Made by a program: the position numbers and the translations under genes. This document shows, in pieces, positions 3,161-13,021 of a DNA stretch of 46,341 nt (position 1 is the first letter of the stretch; each line of letters begins with the position of its first letter). Below the pieces are notes generated by a model, which saw nothing but the letters and a program-made list of their open reading frames with translations, was not told where the DNA came from and made no database searches. This DNA comes from Actinomycetes bacterium (GTDB lineage Bacteria; Actinomycetota; CALGFH01), in NCBI GenBank assembly GCA_036000965.1, contig DASYUT010000301.1, positions 1 through 46,341 of the forward strand, read 5' to 3'.

Positions 3161-3258
3161 CCGCGCCCGGCCGCCTGACCGCGTCCGGTCCCCGCCTGAC
3201 CGCGCGTCTGGTGGTCGGCGCCACCCCGGTTCCGCTTCCCGGTCCAGACCGCCGTGGT

Positions 3259-3282
3259 CGACTGTTACGCCGACTGTTACGC
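3259..3282. repeat. 12-bp tandem duplication over the helicase stop codon
   Basis: The 12-base unit CGACTGTTACGC occurs twice in a row. Each copy contains TTA, which is a TAA stop when read on the minus strand. The helicase gene terminates in the downstream copy, so the duplication supplies a second in-frame stop. Confidence 0.8.
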
Positions 3283-5805
3283 CGACGCCAAGTGAGCGGG
3301 CGGGTCGGTCCGCTGCGAGCGCAGGCGTGCGAGCACCGCGGGCAGGTGCCCGGTATGCACCACGCCGAGCCGCTGGGTCGCGCGCGTGAGCGCGACGTAG
3401 AGGTCGTTCCCGCCGCGCGGGGACTCGGCCAGGATGGCTTCCGGCTCGACGACGACCACCGCGTCGAACTCCAGTCCCTTGGTCTGGGCAACGGTCAGCA
3501 CCGCGATCGGTGCGTCGAGGACGGACGGGTCCTGCCCGGCCGCTGCCCCGGGCAGAGCGGCGGTGACGAGCCGGCCCAGCTCCTCCGCCTGCGCGGCGGG
3601 AACCAGCACGGCGAGCTTGCCGTCACCGACCGCGGCCGCCTCGGCGGCGACGGCAGCCGGCAGTTCGGCGGCGAGCGCGGTCGCGTCGACCCGCAGGCTC
3701 CATGGCGCGACGCCGCTCGCCCGCACCGACCTGGGCGGCTCGATCTCCCCGTCGACGCTTGCGAGCACGTCGGCCGCGACCGCCATGACCTCCTCCGGTG
3801 TGCGGTAGTTGACGGTCAGCCGCGTCTCCCGCCAGCCACCGGCCGCATGCGGGTCCAGGACGTGTGCCCAGGAGCTGGCGCCCCATGGCGCTCCCCTCTG
3901 CGCGAGGTCGCCGACGACCGTCATCGACCGGCTCGGGCAGCGCCGCATGAGCATCCGCCAGGCCATTGCGGAGACCTCCTGGGCCTCGTCGACGATGACG
4001 TGCCCGAAGGTCCACGTCCGGTCCTGGCCGGCCCGGTCCGCGATGCTCCGCTCCGCCATGCCACGGTGGTACCGGCCCACCAGGTCCGCCGGGTCGAGGC
4101 CGCTGGTGTCCGGGGCGTAGCGGGCGGCGTCCCCGATGGTGGCGACGGCCAGAACCTCACGCGCGTAGGCCAGCTCGCGCTGCTGCTGCTGCTCGGCCTG
4201 GCGGGCAGCAGCGTGCGCGGCCGCCCTGTCGTCCTCGCCCAGCAGGACGGCGGCCTCGTCGAGCAACGGGACGTCCGCCCATGTCCACCATGCGGGGGCG
4301 TCATCGTCCGGCCCCTCCGGGGGCTCGCGCAGCAGCGGCGCCCGCTCGGACGGGAGCAGGCCCGGCGCGGCGGACGCAAGTCGCTCGGGCGAGGCGAACA
4401 GGCCGGTGAGGAGCTGCTGGGGGGTGAGGCACGGCCACAGCCGGTCCAGCACCGCAACCACCTCGGGCGCGCCGGCGAGCTCGGCGTGGATGTCGGCCAG
4501 CTCGCCGTCCAGCAGCCGCTCGTTGGGCAGGTCGTCGTTGATCAGGTCGTCGTCTGGCAGGTCGACGTCTGGCAGGTCGACGTCTGGCAGGTCGACGGTC
4601 AGGCGGGTGGCCACCTGATGGGCGAGCGCCGTGAGCAGCTCGTGCTCGAAGACGCGCCTGGACCGGTTGTGCGGCGTGCCGGCCATGCGCGCCCGCTGCC
4701 GGGCCTGCTCGCAGGTCGCCCGGTCCAGGCGCAGCACCTGGCCGTCGACGGTGACCTCGAGCGTGTCGTCGGGCACGCGCTGGCGGTCGCGGACCGCCGC
4801 GGCCAGCACGTCGACCATGCGCAGGTCGCCCTTGACCGTGGCCGCCTCGACCGGCTCGCGACCGGTCGCGGTCACCCCCGGGTACAGGCCCTCGACCGTG
4901 GACAGGAGCACGTCGGTCTCGCCGAGGGAGGGCAGGACCTGCTCGATGTAGCGGAGGAAGGTCGGGTTCGGCCCGACCACCAGCACGCCGCGCCTGGCCA
5001 GCCGGTGGCGATGGGTGTAGAGGAGGTAGGCGGCCCGGTGCAGTGCGACGGCGGTCTTCCCGGTGCCGGGCCCGCCCTGGACGACCAGGATGCCGGGCAG
5101 GCCGGACCGGATGACGCGGTCCTGCTCGGCCTGGATGGTCGCGACGATCTCGCCCATGCGGCCGGTGCGGCTCGCGGTGAGGGAGGCGAGCAGCGCCGCC
5201 TCGCCGCTCAAGCGGCCGCGCTCGTCCTGGCTCAGCGCGTCGAGGTCGAGCGCGTCGTCATCGATGCCCGTGACCACGCGGTTCCTGGTCCGCAGGTGGC
5301 GGCGGCGCACGACGCCGTCGGGAGCGACCGGCGTGGCCCGGTAGAACGGCTGTGCAGCCGGGGCACGCCAGTCGACCAGCAGCGGCTCGCGCTCGTCGTC
5401 GAGCAGTCCCAGGCGCCCGACGTACAGGCGGGAGCCGTCCCGGCGGTCGAGCCGGCCGAAGCAGAGCCCGTTCTCCGCCGCGGCCAGCTGCGCGAGCCGG
5501 TTGGTGAGCCTGGCCACGAACGTGTCGCGGTCCAGTCGCGCCTGGAGGGTCCCGCCCCCCTCCTGCCGGAGGAACTGCGCCAGCCGCGCGCGGGTGCGGG
5601 CCCGCAACCCGTCCACCCGGCCGTACAGCATGGACACGTATGCCTGCTCCTGCTCGAGCTGCGTGAGCGCCTGCTCCTGCTCGAGCTGCGTGAGCGGGCT
5701 GTGCGGATGGTGCTGGGCACCATCGGGCAGACCGGCGGGTGCTTCGGTGTCATCACCCGGCCGGCCCGCCAGCTGGGTCTCGTCCCCGATCCGGAAGTCG
5801 TTCAT
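3277..5805 (-). CDS. HelD/HelR-family superfamily 1 helicase-like protein
   Basis: An 842-residue UvrD/Rep-like ATPase of the HelD type, which removes stalled RNA polymerase from DNA; some actinobacterial members confer rifampicin tolerance. The N-terminal coiled coil ends in EQEQAYVSMLYGRVDGLRAR. The HelD-specific segment has YVGRLGLLDDEREPLLVDWR. Walker A is GGPGTGKTAVALHRAAYLL, Walker B is VIVDEAQEVSAM, and motif IV is LTVNYRTPEEVM. Motifs V and VI are TKGLEFDAVVVV and LYVALTRATQRLGV. I chose the ATG giving MNDFRIGDE because a strong GGGGGAG element precedes it; the frame stays open to 5943. A Leu/Asp-rich stretch and the N-terminal helix both contain exact tandem repeats. No rifampicin-associated element was found upstream. 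Confidence 0.9.
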   Translation of the reverse strand: MNDFRIGDETQLAGRPGDDTEAPAGLPDGAQHHPHSPLTQLEQEQALTQLEQEQAYVSMLYGRVDGLRARTRARLAQFLRQEGGGTLQARLDRDTFVARLTNRLAQLAAAENGLCFGRLDRRDGSRLYVGRLGLLDDEREPLLVDWRAPAAQPFYRATPVAPDGVVRRRHLRTRNRVVTGIDDDALDLDALSQDERGRLSGEAALLASLTASRTGRMGEIVATIQAEQDRVIRSGLPGILVVQGGPGTGKTAVALHRAAYLLYTHRHRLARRGVLVVGPNPTFLRYIEQVLPSLGETDVLLSTVEGLYPGVTATGREPVEAATVKGDLRMVDVLAAAVRDRQRVPDDTLEVTVDGQVLRLDRATCEQARQRARMAGTPHNRSRRVFEHELLTALAHQVATRLTVDLPDVDLPDVDLPDDDLINDDLPNERLLDGELADIHAELAGAPEVVAVLDRLWPCLTPQQLLTGLFASPERLASAAPGLLPSERAPLLREPPEGPDDDAPAWWTWADVPLLDEAAVLLGEDDRAAAHAAARQAEQQQQRELAYAREVLAVATIGDAARYAPDTSGLDPADLVGRYHRGMAERSIADRAGQDRTWTFGHVIVDEAQEVSAMAWRMLMRRCPSRSMTVVGDLAQRGAPWGASSWAHVLDPHAAGGWRETRLTVNYRTPEEVMAVAADVLASVDGEIEPPRSVRASGVAPWSLRVDATALAAELPAAVAAEAAAVGDGKLAVLVPAAQAEELGRLVTAALPGAAAGQDPSVLDAPIAVLTVAQTKGLEFDAVVVVEPEAILAESPRGGNDLYVALTRATQRLGVVHTGHLPAVLARLRSQRTDPPAHLASA
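4546..4590. repeat. 15-bp repeat, three units, inside the helicase gene
   Basis: Three adjacent units of 15 bases, the last two identical, encode repeated VDLPD blocks and sit beside more degenerate copies. The acidic insert lies in the middle of the HelD-like protein, away from the ATPase motifs, and looks like recent slippage. Confidence 0.8.
5642..5695. repeat. 27-bp perfect tandem duplication in the helicase N-terminus
   Basis: Two identical 27-base units encode LTQLEQEQA twice in the N-terminal coiled coil. In-frame duplication lengthens the coiled coil by nine residues, slightly more than two heptads, just before the conserved YVSMLYGRVD motif. Confidence 0.85.
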
Positions 5806-5962: not shown

Positions 5963-6040
5963 CACGGCGCCAGAGGCACGCCCCGTCCCTGAGCCGCCCG
6001 GCGCTCTCCGTGACGTGCGGCTGATCCTGAGCTGCCCGGC

Positions 6041-6115
6041 CTCTCCCTGACTGCGCGGCCTCTCCCTGACTGCGCGGCTCCTCCCTGACTGCGCGGCTCC
6101 TCCCTGACCTGCGGC
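6041..6115. repeat. 19-bp tandem repeat, four units
   Basis: Four adjacent units of about 19 bases share the core CTCCCTGACTGCGCGGC. The first two are identical and the fourth has lost one base. They lie in the untranslated stretch between the promoter at 5861 and the subtilase start; partial copies also flank them near 6001-6035. Confidence 0.8.
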
Positions 6116-6309: not shown

Positions 6310-8181
6310 ATGGCATGGCAGCTGCCTGGCCTCCCCGTTCGTCTGTCGTCGTCCATACGGTCGTGCTGCGCGCTGTTGGCGCTGCTCGCGCTCGTGCTGG
6401 TCGCGGCCCTCCCTCCCGGTACGCCGGCCGCCCCCGACGAGGCGGGCGGCTCGCTAGGACAGGGCGGCGTGACCGCGGCGCGCGCGACCGTCCCGCTCAT
6501 CGTCCGGGAGCGCGACCCCGGCTCGGCCCGGGCCGAGCGGCTGGTGCGCCAGCTCGGCGGGACCGTGACCCACGAGCTCCCGATCATTGGCGGCTTCGCG
6601 GCCCGCATCCGCGCCGACCGGCTCCCGCGCCTGCTCGGCTCCCCGGCGGTCCAGCGCCTCTGGCCGGACGGCCGCATCCGCATGCACGGCCTCACCGGCG
6701 GCGACGGGGACGGCGACGACCCGAAGGACCACGACCCGCTTCCCGCCGACCGGACCTGGCGCAAGGCGATCGGTCTGGACCGGCACCGCCGGGGCGGCGA
6801 ACCGTCCACCGTCGCCCTGCTCGACACCGGCATCACCCGCACGCCTGACCTCGACGGCCGGGTGCTGGCTCGGGTGGACCTGACCGAGGAGCGCGACGGC
6901 TACGACCGCTTCGGGCACGGCAGCCATCTCGCCGGCGTGATCGCCGGCAACGGCGAGATGATGGACGGCAGCGCGGGCGGCAGCAGCGGGGGTGGCTATC
7001 AAGGCGCCGCGCCCACGGCCCGGCTCGTGTCGGTGAAGGTGGCCAACTGGAGCGGGGCCACCGACGTCTCGGTGGTGCTCGCCGGCCTGCAGTGGGTGGT
7101 CTCCAACCGGGTCCGCCTCGGCATCAAGGTCCTGAACCTGTCCTTCGGCACCGACTCCACCCAGAGCTACCTGGTCGACCCCCTCGACTACGCGGTCGAG
7201 CGGGTGTGGCGGTCGGGGATCCTGGTGGTGGTGGCGGCCGGCAACGACGGCGAGCTCGTGTCGCCCACCATCCGCAAGCCCGGCGACGACCCCTTCGTGC
7301 TCACCGTCGGCGCGGCCGACCTCAACAACACGAGCAGGACCGGCGACGACGTGGTAGCGCCGTTCTCGAGCCGGGGCACGACCGCCGAAGGCGTGGCAAA
7401 GCCGGACCTGGTCGCGCCGGGCACCTCGATCCTCGGCATCCGCGCCGTGGACAGCACGATCGACCGTCTCCGTCCGGCCGCGCGCTACAACCGCCACTAC
7501 TTCAAGGGGACCGGCACCTCCCAGGCCGCCGCGGTCGTCTCCGGCGTCGCCGCGCTGCTGTACCAGGAGGACCCGGCCCTCCGGCCCGACGTCGCCAAGG
7601 CGGCGCTGCTCGACACCGCGCAGCAGTACCTTGCCGGCCAGCCCGGCGCGGGCGCCGGCCTGGTGGACGCCGGCGCCGCGACCGCGGCGGTGAGGCGCGG
7701 GGCGTACCGGTCCCACCCTGCCAACCAGGGCCTGCGGTCCTCGACCGGTCGCGGCTCCCTGGAGGCCAGCCGCGGGTCGCTGCGCGCGTACACTGACCTT
7801 GACGGCGACGGTGCGCCGGAGCCGGTCGCCGGCGAGGTGGACGCGCTCGGGAGGGTATGGGATGCGGCCGCGTGGACGGCCACGTCTTGGACAACCGCGA
7901 CGTGGCCATGGTCGCCCTGGTCCCGCCTGGTGGCCGAGGCTCCTGGGTGGGAGGTCGAGCCCCAGGGCGGGGACTCCTGGAGCGGCATGGGCTGGGACGC
8001 CAGGTCCTGGAGCATCAAGCACTGGGGCGGCCTCGGAGACGACCCGAGTGCCTGGGAGATCAAGCACTGGGGCGGCCTCGGAGACGACCCGAGCGGCTGG
8101 GAGATCAAGCACTGGGGCACCTTCGGAGTCGACCCGAGCGGCTGGGAGATCAAGCACTGGGGCGCCGAGAGCTGGAGTTGA
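6310..8181 (+). CDS. Secreted subtilisin-like (S8) serine protease with Trp-rich C-terminal repeats
   Basis: A 623-residue exported protease. Residues 1-43 form a signal peptide with a Leu/Ala core. Residues 55-115 resemble an inhibitor/pro-domain. The triad is complete: Asp172 in VALLDTGI, His203 in GHGSHLAGV and Ser404 in GTGTSQAAAVVSGVAALL. The oxyanion-hole region reads VVVAAGNDGE. Beyond the catalytic domain (after about residue 465) lies a Trp-rich tail with several SW, TW and GW pairs and three 15-residue repeats of the form IKHWGGLGDDPSGWE. Trp-rich tails occur in some other actinobacterial subtilases, probably for wall or substrate binding. The start is the ATG after AGGAG rather than the upstream frame opening at 6250. 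Confidence 0.92.
   Translation: MAWQLPGLPVRLSSSIRSCCALLALLALVLVAALPPGTPAAPDEAGGSLGQGGVTAARATVPLIVRERDPGSARAERLVRQLGGTVTHELPIIGGFAARIRADRLPRLLGSPAVQRLWPDGRIRMHGLTGGDGDGDDPKDHDPLPADRTWRKAIGLDRHRRGGEPSTVALLDTGITRTPDLDGRVLARVDLTEERDGYDRFGHGSHLAGVIAGNGEMMDGSAGGSSGGGYQGAAPTARLVSVKVANWSGATDVSVVLAGLQWVVSNRVRLGIKVLNLSFGTDSTQSYLVDPLDYAVERVWRSGILVVVAAGNDGELVSPTIRKPGDDPFVLTVGAADLNNTSRTGDDVVAPFSSRGTTAEGVAKPDLVAPGTSILGIRAVDSTIDRLRPAARYNRHYFKGTGTSQAAAVVSGVAALLYQEDPALRPDVAKAALLDTAQQYLAGQPGAGAGLVDAGAATAAVRRGAYRSHPANQGLRSSTGRGSLEASRGSLRAYTDLDGDGAPEPVAGEVDALGRVWDAAAWTATSWTTATWPWSPWSRLVAEAPGWEVEPQGGDSWSGMGWDARSWSIKHWGGLGDDPSAWEIKHWGGLGDDPSGWEIKHWGTFGVDPSGWEIKHWGAESWS
8014..8148. repeat. 45-bp in-frame tandem repeat, three units
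   Basis: Three 45-base units encode the IKHWG...PSGWE repeats of the subtilase tail, and a partial fourth follows. The first two units are almost identical at DNA level; the third has changed several codons. This points to recent expansion of the tail. Confidence 0.9.
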
Positions 8182-8278
8182 GACAGGCGCGGGCCGCCGG
8201 CGGCCGCCGGCGGCCCGCGCGCTCATCGGGCTGGTCACGCTGGGCGGCCTGGGATGCCTGGCGTTCCGGCTCCCTGAG

Positions 8279-9682
8279 GTGGCCCGGTGGGACGCGACCG
8301 AGCTGTGGGCCTGGGTGGCGCTGACCACGCTCAGCGTGGTCCTGGAGCAGTTCCCCCTCCCGCTGCCCTATGGCGACGAGCGGCAGGTCTTCTCGCTCGT
8401 CGACGCGGTCTGGGCGGCCGCGCTGCTGGTGGCCGAGCCCAGCGTGCTGACCCTGACGGTTGCCGCCGGGCTCCTCCTGGGACAGGCCTTCCAACCCTGG
8501 CCGTTGCACAAGAAGGCCTTCAACCTGGGCCAGCACCTCATCGGGATCACCGTTGCCGAGCTGGTCTACCAGGCCCTCGCGCCCGCGAGCCCCACCTCGC
8601 CCGCCGCTTGGGGAGCGGCGGGCGCGGCCATGGGAGCGCTGTACGTCCTGAACGAGATGGCGGTGGCGCTGGTCGTCTCGCTGATGGAGGGTGCGCCGTT
8701 CTGGCGGGTGCTGGCGGCGCCGTTCCGCCTCACGCTGATGAACTGGGCGGGTAGCCTGGCCATCGGCCTGCTCGGCGGGGTGCTGTGGGCCACCGCCCCG
8801 CTGATCGTGCCGCTGCTGCTGGTCCCGCTGGCGCTCTCCTACCTGACCCAGCGGGGGTGGCGGGCCAGGCTGCGGGAGCGTGACCAGATGCGGGACATCG
8901 CGCACACGGCCAACGCCATCTCCGAGCAGGGTGATCTCACCAAGCGGGTGCCCGAGACCGACGAGCGCAACGAGGCCGAGCTGCTGGCGGCCACGATCAA
9001 CCAGATGCTGGACCGGCTCGAAGCGGCGTTCCAGCGGGAGCGACGGTTCATCAGCGAGGCGTCACACGAGCTGCGCACGCCGCTGACGATCTGCCGCGGG
9101 CACCTCGAGGTGCTGGGCACCGACGCCCCGCCGCAAGAGGTGGCCGAGACCCACCGGCGGGTGATCGGGGAGCTCGCGCACATGGGCCGGATCGTCCAGG
9201 ACATGGCCACCCTGGCCAAGGCCGAGCACCCCGAGTTCCTGCGACCGGAGCAGGTCCCACTCGACAGCTTCGTGGACGAGCTGGCGGCGAACGCGGCGCC
9301 GCTGCTCGACGGGCACCTGCGCGTCGAGCCTGTGCCACCTGGCATGGTCCTGCAGGCGGACCCGCAGCGGCTCACCCAGGCGCTGCTCAACCTGCTGCGC
9401 AACGCCGCGCTCCACGCCGCGGGCGGCAGCCCGGTGGAGCTGCGGCTGGTCGGGGAGCCGGACGGGGTCCGCTTCGAGGTCGAGGACCGCGGTGGCGGCC
9501 TGCCAGCCGGGGAGGAGGAGGGGGTCTTCCAGCCGTTCCGCCGGCTCAACACCGCGGTCCCCGGGACCGGGCTCGGCCTTGCCATCGTGCGCGGCATCGC
9601 CGAGGCGCACGGCGGCTCGGCGGGTGCCCGCAACCGTCCCGGCTACGGCGTGACGTTCTGGCTCTTCGTCCCCTGGTCGTGA
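8279..9682 (+). CDS. Membrane sensor histidine kinase (HAMP-HisKA-HATPase)
   Basis: A kinase with about six hydrophobic segments in its first 200 residues. A HAMP-like region follows (RDIAHTANAISEQGDLTKRV). The H-box reads FISEASHELRTPLTICRG, the N-box ALLNLLRNAALHA, and the G-boxes VEDRGGGLP and GTGLGLAIV. The start is uncertain. The frame is open far upstream through the subtilase repeats, and a hydrophobic helix (ALIGLVTLGGLGCLAF) begins near 8214, but I see no ATG, GTG or TTG with a ribosome site in front of it. The GTG at 8279 is the first usable codon and cuts into that helix. Its probable partner is the convergent OmpR-type regulator, which overlaps its 3' end. Confidence 0.8.
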   Translation: MARWDATELWAWVALTTLSVVLEQFPLPLPYGDERQVFSLVDAVWAAALLVAEPSVLTLTVAAGLLLGQAFQPWPLHKKAFNLGQHLIGITVAELVYQALAPASPTSPAAWGAAGAAMGALYVLNEMAVALVVSLMEGAPFWRVLAAPFRLTLMNWAGSLAIGLLGGVLWATAPLIVPLLLVPLALSYLTQRGWRARLRERDQMRDIAHTANAISEQGDLTKRVPETDERNEAELLAATINQMLDRLEAAFQRERRFISEASHELRTPLTICRGHLEVLGTDAPPQEVAETHRRVIGELAHMGRIVQDMATLAKAEHPEFLRPEQVPLDSFVDELAANAAPLLDGHLRVEPVPPGMVLQADPQRLTQALLNLLRNAALHAAGGSPVELRLVGEPDGVRFEVEDRGGGLPAGEEEGVFQPFRRLNTAVPGTGLGLAIVRGIAEAHGGSAGARNRPGYGVTFWLFVPWS

Positions 9683-10338
9683 TCTGCCACCAGGCGGTAG
9701 CCCATGCCCCGCACCGTCTGGATCAAGCCTTCACCGAGCTTGCGGCGTAGATGCCCGACGTAGACGTCCACCACGTTGGACCCGGGATCGAAGTCCAGCC
9801 CCCAGACCCGCGACAGCAGCCGCTCCCGGCTCAGCACCTGCCGCGGGTGCCGCAGGAACATCTCGAGCAACGCGAACTCCCGGGCGGTCAGATCGAGCTC
9901 GCGCCCGTGCACGCGGATCCTCCGCGTGCGCAGGTCCAGGGCCAGCCCGGCGACCTCCAGCACCATCACCTGCTCGCCCTCGCGCCGGCGCAGCCGGGCG
10001 CGGATGCGCGCCAGTAGCTCGTCGAACGCGAACGGCTTGGTGAGGTAGTCGTCCGCGCCCTGGTCGAGGCCCTCGACCCGGTCGGCGGTGTCGCCACGGG
10101 CGGTGAGCACGATGACGGGCACGTGGTTGCCCGTGGCGCGCAGGCGGCGCAGCACGTCGGTGCCGTCCAGGTCCGGCAGTCGCAGGTCGAGCACGACGAG
10201 GTCGACGTCGGCCTGCCTGGCCAGGGCCAATCCTCCGGCGCCGGTGACGGAGTGCTCCACGGTATAGCCGTGGGCCCGCAATCCCTTCAGCAGGAACGAT
10301 GCGATCTCTGGCTCGTCCTCGATGACAAGAAGCTTCAT
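9643..10338 (-). CDS. OmpR/PhoB-family response regulator
   Basis: A 231-residue two-domain regulator. The receiver domain begins MKLLVIEDEPEIASFL and has its phospho-acceptor Asp51 in VVLDLRLPDLDG; the conserved Thr is in VIVLTARGD and Lys in DDYLTKPF. The C-terminal winged helix contains LTAREFALLEMFLRHP and VVDVYVGHLRRKLG. Its gene faces the histidine kinase and their 3' ends overlap by 40 bases, so both transcripts share antisense ends. Upstream, across a short divergent region with an inverted repeat, lie the YtkA-like and CopC-CopD genes, which suggests a copper or envelope-stress role. That role is inference from position. Confidence 0.92.
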   Translation of the reverse strand: MKLLVIEDEPEIASFLLKGLRAHGYTVEHSVTGAGGLALARQADVDLVVLDLRLPDLDGTDVLRRLRATGNHVPVIVLTARGDTADRVEGLDQGADDYLTKPFAFDELLARIRARLRRREGEQVMVLEVAGLALDLRTRRIRVHGRELDLTAREFALLEMFLRHPRQVLSRERLLSRVWGLDFDPGSNVVDVYVGHLRRKLGEGLIQTVRGMGYRLVADHDQGTKSQNVTP

Positions 10339-11323: not shown

Positions 11324-13021
11324 ATGCGACGCCTGGCAGCTGCCGCCCTGCTCGCCGGCCTGTGGCTGCTCGCCACAGGCCCGGCGGCCGGGGCCCACGG
11401 CAACCTTCGTGCCTCCCAGCCCGCCGACGGGTCCGCGCTCACCCAGCCGCCGCAGGCGGTGCGCCTGGAGTTCAGCGAGGCACCGGAGCGGGCGCTGTCC
11501 GCCGTGCACGTGCTCGACGCCAGCGGGCGCCCGGTCGAGCGGGGCAGGGTGCAGCCGGTCCCCGGGCAGCCGCGTGCGCTGAGCGTGCCGCTGGACGCGC
11601 TGGGTTCGGGGGTCTACACGGTGAGCTGGCGGGTGGTGTCGCGCGTGGACGGGCACACCACCAGGGGCGTGTTCGCCTTCGGCGTCGGCGACCAGGCCCC
11701 CGGCACGATCATCGGCGTCGAGCCAGCGGCCGTGCGGCAGTCGGGCGACCCGCCGACCGGCCTGGGCGTGGCCGGCCGCTGGGCCGTCTACTGGGGCTTC
11801 GCCCTGCTCATCGGGGCGGCCGCGACCGGTCTGGCGGTGTTCGACCGCCGCCTGCCCGGACGGCCCGCCCGCCTGCTGGTTACCGCCCTGCTGCTGGCCG
11901 CCGCAGGGCTGGTGCTCATGGCGGTGGCAGCGGCGACGGCGGCGGAGGTGTCCCTGGTCCGGCTGGCCGGGTCGGCCACGGGCCTGTGGCTGCTCGGCCG
12001 TGGTGCGGCGCTGCTCGTGGCCGCCTGGGCAGTGGCGCTGCTGCTGACCCGCCCCAGCCCGGCCCGGCACCTGGCCCGGCCAGGGCCCCTGGCCTCGGCA
12101 CGGCCTCTGGCCGTCCTGGCCCTGGCCGCCGCCGGCGGCCTGCTGGTGCACACCCTGGCCGGCCACGCCGCCGCCCCGTCCCCGCTGCGCGGGCTCAACC
12201 TGCTGGCCCAGTGGGCCCACCTGGTCGCGGTCGGCGTGTGGATCGGCGGCCTCGCCTGGCTGTTGCAGGGCCTGCGCGGCCAGTCCCGCGCCGAGCAGGT
12301 GACCGCGTCGGTGCGCTTCTCCCGGCTGGCCGCGGCCGGCCTGGTCGTGGTGGTGGCCACCGGTGTGGCCCGCACCCTGGACGAGCTGGGCGGCTGGCAG
12401 CGCCTGGCCGACAGCGGCTACGGGCGTGCCCTGCTGGTCAAGGTGGTGGTGTTCGCCGCGCTGGCGGGGATGGGCGCGGGCAACCGCTACCTGGTCATCC
12501 CCGCGCTGCGAGCCGGGCAGATCCCGGTCGCCCGGCTGCGGGGGACCGTCCGCGGCGAGCTGGGGCTGGCCGCGGTCGTGCTGGCCGTGGCGGCGCTGCT
12601 GAGCGAGCTGCCCCCCGGCGCCACGCCCGCGCCGGCGTCCCAGGCGCCGGCGGCGCCCACGACCGTGCAGGCGAGCGGGAGCGACTACGCGACCTCTCTG
12701 CGGGTCACCCTGACCGTCACCCCCGGCGTGGCCGGGCCCAATCGCTTCGCCGCCAGGGTGGCCGACTACGACACCGGCGCGCCCCTGCCGGTCCAGCGGC
12801 TCCGGCTGAGCAGCGCGCTGCGGTCCCGTCCGGACCTGGAGGCCTCCTCGCTGGACCTCGCCCGCGACGGCGACGGCCGCTGGCACGGGCAGGGCAACCT
12901 GCTGTCGATCGCCGGACGCTGGGACGTCACCGCTCTGGTCGAGACCGGCTCCCGCGTGCTGACCGTGCCGCTCGACGTCGAGATGGGCCTCCCCGGCGCG
13001 CCCAGCCCGCCCAGGCGCTGA
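11324..13021 (+). CDS. CopC-CopD fusion copper transport protein (YcnJ-like)
   Basis: A 565-residue protein. The signal peptide ends at AAGAHG, leaving a His next to the new N-terminus as in CopC copper sites. Residues 25-125 are the CopC domain (LRASQPADGSALTQPP, then VDGHTTRGVFAFGVG with the second His). About eight transmembrane helices follow, typical of CopD, with HTLAGHAAAPSPL and NLLAQWAHLVAVGVWIGG carrying conserved His and Trp. The last 120 residues form a second extracytoplasmic beta domain (LRVTLTVTPGVAGPNRFAAR) like those appended to YcnJ. It should move copper across the membrane for uptake or insertion into cuproenzymes. Its neighbour supplies a YtkA-like partner. Confidence 0.88.
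   Translation: MRRLAAAALLAGLWLLATGPAAGAHGNLRASQPADGSALTQPPQAVRLEFSEAPERALSAVHVLDASGRPVERGRVQPVPGQPRALSVPLDALGSGVYTVSWRVVSRVDGHTTRGVFAFGVGDQAPGTIIGVEPAAVRQSGDPPTGLGVAGRWAVYWGFALLIGAAATGLAVFDRRLPGRPARLLVTALLLAAAGLVLMAVAAATAAEVSLVRLAGSATGLWLLGRGAALLVAAWAVALLLTRPSPARHLARPGPLASARPLAVLALAAAGGLLVHTLAGHAAAPSPLRGLNLLAQWAHLVAVGVWIGGLAWLLQGLRGQSRAEQVTASVRFSRLAAAGLVVVVATGVARTLDELGGWQRLADSGYGRALLVKVVVFAALAGMGAGNRYLVIPALRAGQIPVARLRGTVRGELGLAAVVLAVAALLSELPPGATPAPASQAPAAPTTVQASGSDYATSLRVTLTVTPGVAGPNRFAARVADYDTGAPLPVQRLRLSSALRSRPDLEASSLDLARDGDGRWHGQGNLLSIAGRWDVTALVETGSRVLTVPLDVEMGLPGAPSPPRR

Follow-up and report, generated by a model that had tools for sequence, protein, structure and literature searches.

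An apparently exported S8 subtilase from an Actinomycetes genome ends in a tail in which tryptophan recurs in a five-residue register, and the gene that follows it encodes a membrane sensor with a predicted S-component fold. Tail and sensor are found together in Actinomycetota and Chloroflexota, and we put at about even the chance that the tail works with the S-component-fold sensor of the next gene as a flexible, multivalent extramembrane element. Both genes lie in the stretch of 46,341 nucleotides that was analysed, hereafter the window (contig DASYUT010000301.1, assembly GCA_036000965.1).

The subtilase and its tryptophan tail

The subtilase gene occupies 6310..8181 on the + strand and, counted from the ATG at 6310, encodes 623 amino acids with an export signal and a C-terminal Trp-pentad tail. 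A previous reading of the sequence only had described a secreted subtilase. Its membership of the S8 family is confirmed by the Pfam Peptidase_S8 profile (E 9.6e-45; 153.5 bits against a cut-off of 21.8), and export is apparent from the hydrophobic N-terminus, the start codon and the export signal having been judged from the sequence by eye. The catalytic domain spans 6805..7629 (+ strand; Pfam residues 166-440), and D142, H173, and S374 (numbering from window position 6400; codons at 6823, 6916, and 7519) are invariant across 36 aligned sequences; from general knowledge of subtilases, we take them to be the Asp-His-Ser triad. Membership of the mycosins was rejected: TIGR03921, the best NCBIfam model, has a cut-off of 278.75 bits and gave 119. 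The genome encodes a second Trp-tail subtilase on another contig. When the window protein was used in a peptide-pattern scan of the genome contigs, no relative was found; 19 plasmid records match the subtilase, none of them over more than 80% of the query length, and for the best 15 of these 19 no match goes past query residue 445 of 623. Upstream of the gene, at 5980-6113, Tandem Repeats Finder reported overlapping tandem repeats of 19, 38, and 57 bases.

The tail (7858..8178, + strand) reaches the C-terminus. Of its 18 Trp, which begin with the codon at 7858, 17 stand in a single phase modulo 5, a register that is kept in the aligned orthologues; over the final 95 residues, 14 of 15 are in phase, which was equalled by none of 200,000 random placements. 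The regular spacing of Trp had been recognised from the sequence before, and its regularity was understated. An Asp-rich DLDGDG motif just before the tail (7795-7824), partly common to the orthologues, resembles a calcium-binding loop.

Within the tail, three 45-base units (8014..8148, + strand) stand head to tail as copies at 8014-8058, 8059-8103, and 8104-8148, and an incomplete fourth begins at 8149. Of the 45 bases, 43 are common to copies 1 and 2, 41 to copies 2 and 3, and 39 to copies 1 and 3, in agreement with the earlier description of three such repeats with the first two almost identical; Tandem Repeats Finder gives an array at 7996-8164 with a period of 45, 3.8 copies, and a score of 210. 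The array reads in the subtilase frame and each unit encodes three pentads, WEIKH/WGGLG/DDPSG, in which Asp stands for the third Trp. Because the unit consists of three pentads with one Trp lost, the 45-base expansion preserves the register. A recent change in copy number, which had also been proposed, gains indirect support from the near-identity of copies 1 and 2 and from five aligned orthologues, whose tails are 43-48% identical to that of the window and lack the 15-residue repeat, one of them (L177) having a single similar unit, WSSYDGDPQAW. By these alignments the 15-residue repeat appears peculiar to the window subtilase among the orthologues aligned, and a lineage-specific expansion of the tail is supported.

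C-terminal Trp-pentad tails are carried by subtilase relatives in Actinomycetota and Chloroflexota, with pentads such as WSANS, WSGAG, WHGNS, or WSARQ in homologous subtilases of the same phylum. Of 744 Trp-Trp spacings measured in 44 tails, 667 are multiples of five, and 695 of 788 Trp are in the main phase of their own tail; the consensus is W-S-G-x-S. These tails hold from 4 to 39 in-phase Trp, and this variable length, together with the near-identity of the first two 45-base copies, is what could be expected from a neutral low-complexity tail made by slippage. However, neutral slippage does not account for multiples of five being kept across divergent sequences, nor for a frame and a register that are intact across the three 45-base copies, and we regard it as highly improbable; as the register holds across divergent relatives, the tail is unlikely to be neutral. 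A scan of a public genome set for Trp spacing gave at least 119 stretches, and most in-frame runs in them look, by eye, like chance frames in which 15-base DNA repeats are read. One deltaproteobacterial ORF of 1441 aa (L101, + strand) has an internal run of WSNPN pentads and no S8 profile match.

The AlphaFold2 model of the subtilase (593 residues) is good for the catalytic region and the initial pentads, and residues 520-593 have a pLDDT near 30. These last 74 residues show no regular structure, and folding upon binding is compatible with such a model. The sequence-only reading had suggested a beta-solenoid, and a tail folded in this way, or as another glycan-binding repeat structure, would suit the strict five-residue period, which is also that of pentapeptide-repeat solenoids. 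This proposal was not borne out, as there is no confident structure past about residue 520; moreover, Peptidase_S8 is the sole Pfam match at E 0.1, with no repeat family matching, and no PDB sequence match was found. We dropped the solenoid as the leading idea once the model left most of the tail disordered, and its chance now seems very slight. The same reading had said that a disordered and neutral tail would speak against it: the tail is indeed disordered in the model, but the register kept across divergent relatives argues against its being neutral.

The sensor encoded downstream

The gene directly 3' of the subtilase encodes a sensor histidine kinase. Some 220 residues at its N-terminus form a membrane domain (8246..8899, + strand), recognised by homology, an AlphaFold2 model, and PDB fold matches. 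The following part (8888..9682, + strand) contains HAMP, HisKA, and HATPase domains according to Pfam, and the presence of HisKA and HATPase_c identifies the protein as a sensor histidine kinase. Where this protein starts is uncertain: a start codon scan found no in-frame ATG, GTG, or TTG between the subtilase stop and the membrane domain, and the nearest upstream in-frame start is a GTG at 8048, within the first 45-base unit, so that either the kinase start site or the assembly is uncertain in 8048-8246. Between the two genes, RNA folding gives a strong G+C hairpin with a 15-base-pair stem (8187..8220, + strand); the segment 8165-8230 folds at -49.7 kcal/mol with a z of -4.57, and none of 200 shuffles was as stable.

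The membrane domain was modelled by AlphaFold2 with a pLDDT of 94. In VIA-align, ranks 1-21 are all S components of ECF transporters or their metal counterparts, with Z from 10.2 to 14.0, and the next row falls to 8.1; helical folds may reach a Z near 13 without meaning, but the match is specific despite this caveat because 21 such chains rank unbroken. The best Foldseek match of the model has an E of 4.9e-4. The domain is thus predicted to have the fold of an ECF-transporter S component. A search of PDB sequences with the sensor-domain profile gave no match, and counts of helices and charges converge on no one topology.

The relatives of this domain are joined to several outputs, with a kinase, GGDEF-EAL, or SpoIIE phosphatase present in 20 of 37 proteins scanned; GGDEF-EAL is incomplete in L183 and no output domain was found in L201. 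Nine of 34 sensor domains match MASE9 (PF20972) at E 0.01 or better, and those of L208 and L214 exceed its curated cut-off. No MASE9 match was obtained for the domain of the window itself, so that this domain is MASE9-like only by its relatives, and at E 0.01 the matches of the 34 domains do not include PF07694 (5TMR-LYT). The sensor domain is present in 161 of 396 genomes (E 1e-6), and at least seven such sensors are encoded in the genome of the window itself, two of them behind a Trp-tail subtilase, among seven candidates scored.

Convergent with the kinase gene is that of an OmpR-type response regulator (9643..10338, - strand; Pfam Response_reg and Trans_reg_C), which we consider the partner of the kinase by position only. 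In NCBIfam, regulator and kinase come closest to heavy-metal types, with scores below the cut-offs, and a CopC-CopD copper protein is encoded beyond the regulator, at 11324-13021.

Association of tail and sensor

Homology to the window protein gave 38 Trp-tail subtilase units that could be assessed, and in 35 of them the sensor domain lies just downstream on the same strand; where the frame is intact, this domain starts 48-216 bases past the S8 stop. The units come from the window and 40 regions, which cover 42 of 51 homology-listed places plus two from another homology listing; the other nine of the 51 fall outside the sample. L180, L196, and L205, which reach contig ends, and L207, whose frame as read lacks a Trp tail, were excluded from the 38; the tandem S8 pairs of L191, L200, and L213 were counted once each, and L177 was scored as sensor-positive although its sensor changes frame. 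L206 and L209 have a Trp-tail subtilase without a sensor, and in L214 the sensor is 1.6 kb away.

As a control, S8 loci were drawn by Pfam from 20 genomes (30 loci, giving 29 S8 ORFs), and the sensor adjoins all seven tailed subtilases and none of the 22 untailed ones. As the seven tailed cases were already among the 38 units, the new information is that of the 22 untailed. Initially 13 of these had <600 bases of downstream sequence; 12 were extended to at least 3 kb and contain no sensor domain, and in the thirteenth, in L178, the nearest sensor is 6 kb off and belongs to a tailed subtilase. The loci retrieved from the public genome set by Trp spacing only include eight Trp-tail subtilases, and the sensor is downstream in all seven that could be assessed, among them two from Chloroflexi, one from a Frankiales and one from an Acidothermus assembly, and one from Dactylosporangium aurantiacum NRRL B-8018 (L138); one of the loci, L035, is on the same contig as L203 of the homology set. 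For the eighth, L065, the downstream sequence is taken up by a second subtilase and the stretch ends there.

A similar picture was obtained in 201 genomes of Chloroflexota, where the sensor domain lies <=850 bases downstream of 17 of 21 assessable pentad-tailed subtilases and of none of five pentad-less ones, three of which hold <850 bases; 28 of 33 places were read, and L385 and L402 were dropped for lack of room. Some of the four misses may be false because the profile scores low in this phylum (many matches at 35-65 bits). In six of these loci (L382, L383, L384, L386, L387, and L388) the best sensor match starts about 760-776 bases past the subtilase, a gap of ~770 bases that leaves room for a small gene or an extension of the sensor.

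The two proteins have also diverged together. In 34 pairs, S8 and sensor distances are correlated with a Mantel r of 0.73, which was not reached in any of 5000 permutations, and this co-divergence supports a lasting subtilase-sensor unit. When S8 distances are accounted for, tail composition and sensor give a partial r of 0.06, and 443 of 2000 permutations were as high; this absence of tail-sensor covariation beyond S8 distances argues against a fine ligand specificity.

The pairing is not obligatory. In the five genomes behind the Trp-spacing loci (21 of 22 places read, the remaining one being L105 itself), the sensor stands by eight of 15 Trp-tail subtilases, four of the eight having been counted already. 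Six of the seven tailed subtilases found in Dactylosporangium aurantiacum (L358, L361, L368, L372, L373, and L374), and one from a Chloroflexi genome (L360), have no sensor in the 0.7-1.3 kb read downstream, and no common replacement gene was seen at these seven loci. From the opposite side, 69 extra sensor loci have a subtilase upstream in 16 cases, a Trp-rich ORF in 13 (five accepted), and neither in 40. One of these 40, L315, does contain a tailed S8 in another frame; a fused protease-sensor protein was considered for this locus and rejected, as the sensor sits in a different frame.

These counts bear on the idea that the tail is a surface anchor, in which regularly spaced aromatic residues would fasten the protease to the cell wall or the membrane interface, with the sensor in the same operon as part of one envelope response and without direct contact. 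An anchor would suit the frequent occurrence of Trp at membrane interfaces and in glycan-binding proteins, the C-terminal position of a tail that the model leaves mostly disordered, and the existence of solitary tailed subtilases. However, anchoring predicts neither the absence of the sensor at untailed subtilases (0 of 22) nor its presence next to ORFs that have no protease at all, and we judge it rather unlikely.

Trp-repeat ORFs lacking a protease

In five genomes (G050, G011, G074, G334, and G204), a small Trp-repeat ORF with no protease has the sensor domain 99-179 bases downstream. These ORFs consist of a hydrophobic N-terminus followed by repeats such as GISWT or EVRWN, with a spacing that is often not five, and the peptides are apparently exported, the signals having been judged by eye. 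Three of the five genomes belong to one genus and four to one family, and three of the cases were sought by similarity to the first. Because Trp-repeat ORFs without a protease also directly precede the sensor, it is the Trp repeat, and not the protease, that looks like the partner of the sensor, and these ORFs are the best evidence for this role of the repeat.

Several other loci were left uncounted: in L296 the Trp ORF adjoins an assembly gap of Ns, in L265 and L304 the Trp ORFs are at the edge of the stretch, and the Trp-rich ORFs of L276, L284, L306, and L316 are, by eye, spurious frames. In the window's own genome, L266 (G000:C320) has a reversed-strand ORF (3230-3754) in which most Trp are nine residues apart, in STTWSRPAA-like repeats; it precedes another sensor of the same family, has no clear export signal, and is a possible case only.

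The composition of these ORFs suggests a further explanation, in which the Trp repeats are a tandem ligand precursor that is cut, by the attached subtilase or by another protease, into short Trp peptides, self-made signals bound by the S-component-like domain of the sensor. Yeast alpha-factor is such a tandem precursor, cut by an enzyme of the subtilase family. Favouring a precursor, the protease-less forms are just a hydrophobic N-terminus and tandem Trp repeats, the sensor is predicted to have the fold of a ligand binder, and a subtilase is in the same chain in most of the forms found. However, by eye the tails share no cleavage site beyond Trp itself, their pentad composition shows no covariation with the sensor, and several Dactylosporangium tails have no adjoining sensor, so that we hold this explanation to be possible, with the odds clearly against it.

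Discussion

The genetic evidence, which comes from gene order and sequence comparison, points to the membrane sensor of the adjacent gene, rather than to a glycan or the cell wall as previously suggested, as the partner of the Trp-pentad tail. In the mechanism that we favour, the subtilase would be exported and its largely disordered tail of evenly spaced Trp would dock on or in the membrane domain of the sensor. This docking could tie the activity or the abundance of the protease to signalling, although the contact, its direction, and the role of proteolysis are our inference. The sensor would then relay its state inward through its own output, a kinase in the window and c-di-GMP or a phosphatase in relatives, and the tail could act while attached or after its release.

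A bolder and more doubtful proposal is that Trp repeats in general could be genetically encoded polymeric ligands for S-component-fold sensors, exported alone or fused to a subtilase that releases them. They would then be the counterpart, in Actinomycetota and Chloroflexota, of tandem peptide pheromones, with kinase, c-di-GMP, or phosphatase outputs; we consider this broad generalisation improbable as it stands.

The pairing suggests what MASE9-like and S-component-fold membrane sensors could be responding to, and a physical link, if there is one, would offer a route to the input of these receptors, as well as a simple test bed for repeat-peptide signalling in Actinomycetota and Chloroflexota.

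In the open-licence papers searched, we found neither the Trp-pentad tail nor its pairing with a sensor, and none of them was found to contain the word MASE9; the part of PMC8846402 that was consulted holds nothing bearing on the tail or the pairing. The components themselves, a subtilase, a sensor of S-component fold, and, more weakly, a MASE9-like domain, are of known kinds, and it is the tail and the pairing that were not found described. The window protein shares its domain, catalytic residues, and overall fold with Tk-SP (PDB 3afg), its top structure match, and differs from known S8 subtilases (PF00082) in having the Trp-pentad tail and the pairing with a membrane sensor. As for MASE9, some relatives of the window sensor match this family whereas the window's own domain does not. 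LapD and LapG are a membrane signalling protein and an exported protease that work together; the pair described here involves other protease and sensor families, and LapD/LapG has no Trp repeat. The 5TMR/LytS-type kinases (PF07694) are similar in that they also join an S-component-like membrane domain to kinase or GGDEF/EAL outputs, and the part of PMC11109136 that we consulted reports the S-component fold for 5TMR sensor kinases and places them, in Gram-positives, almost only in Bacillota. The present sensors, in contrast, come from Actinomycetota and Chloroflexota, and the 34 domains scanned have no PF07694 match at E 0.01.
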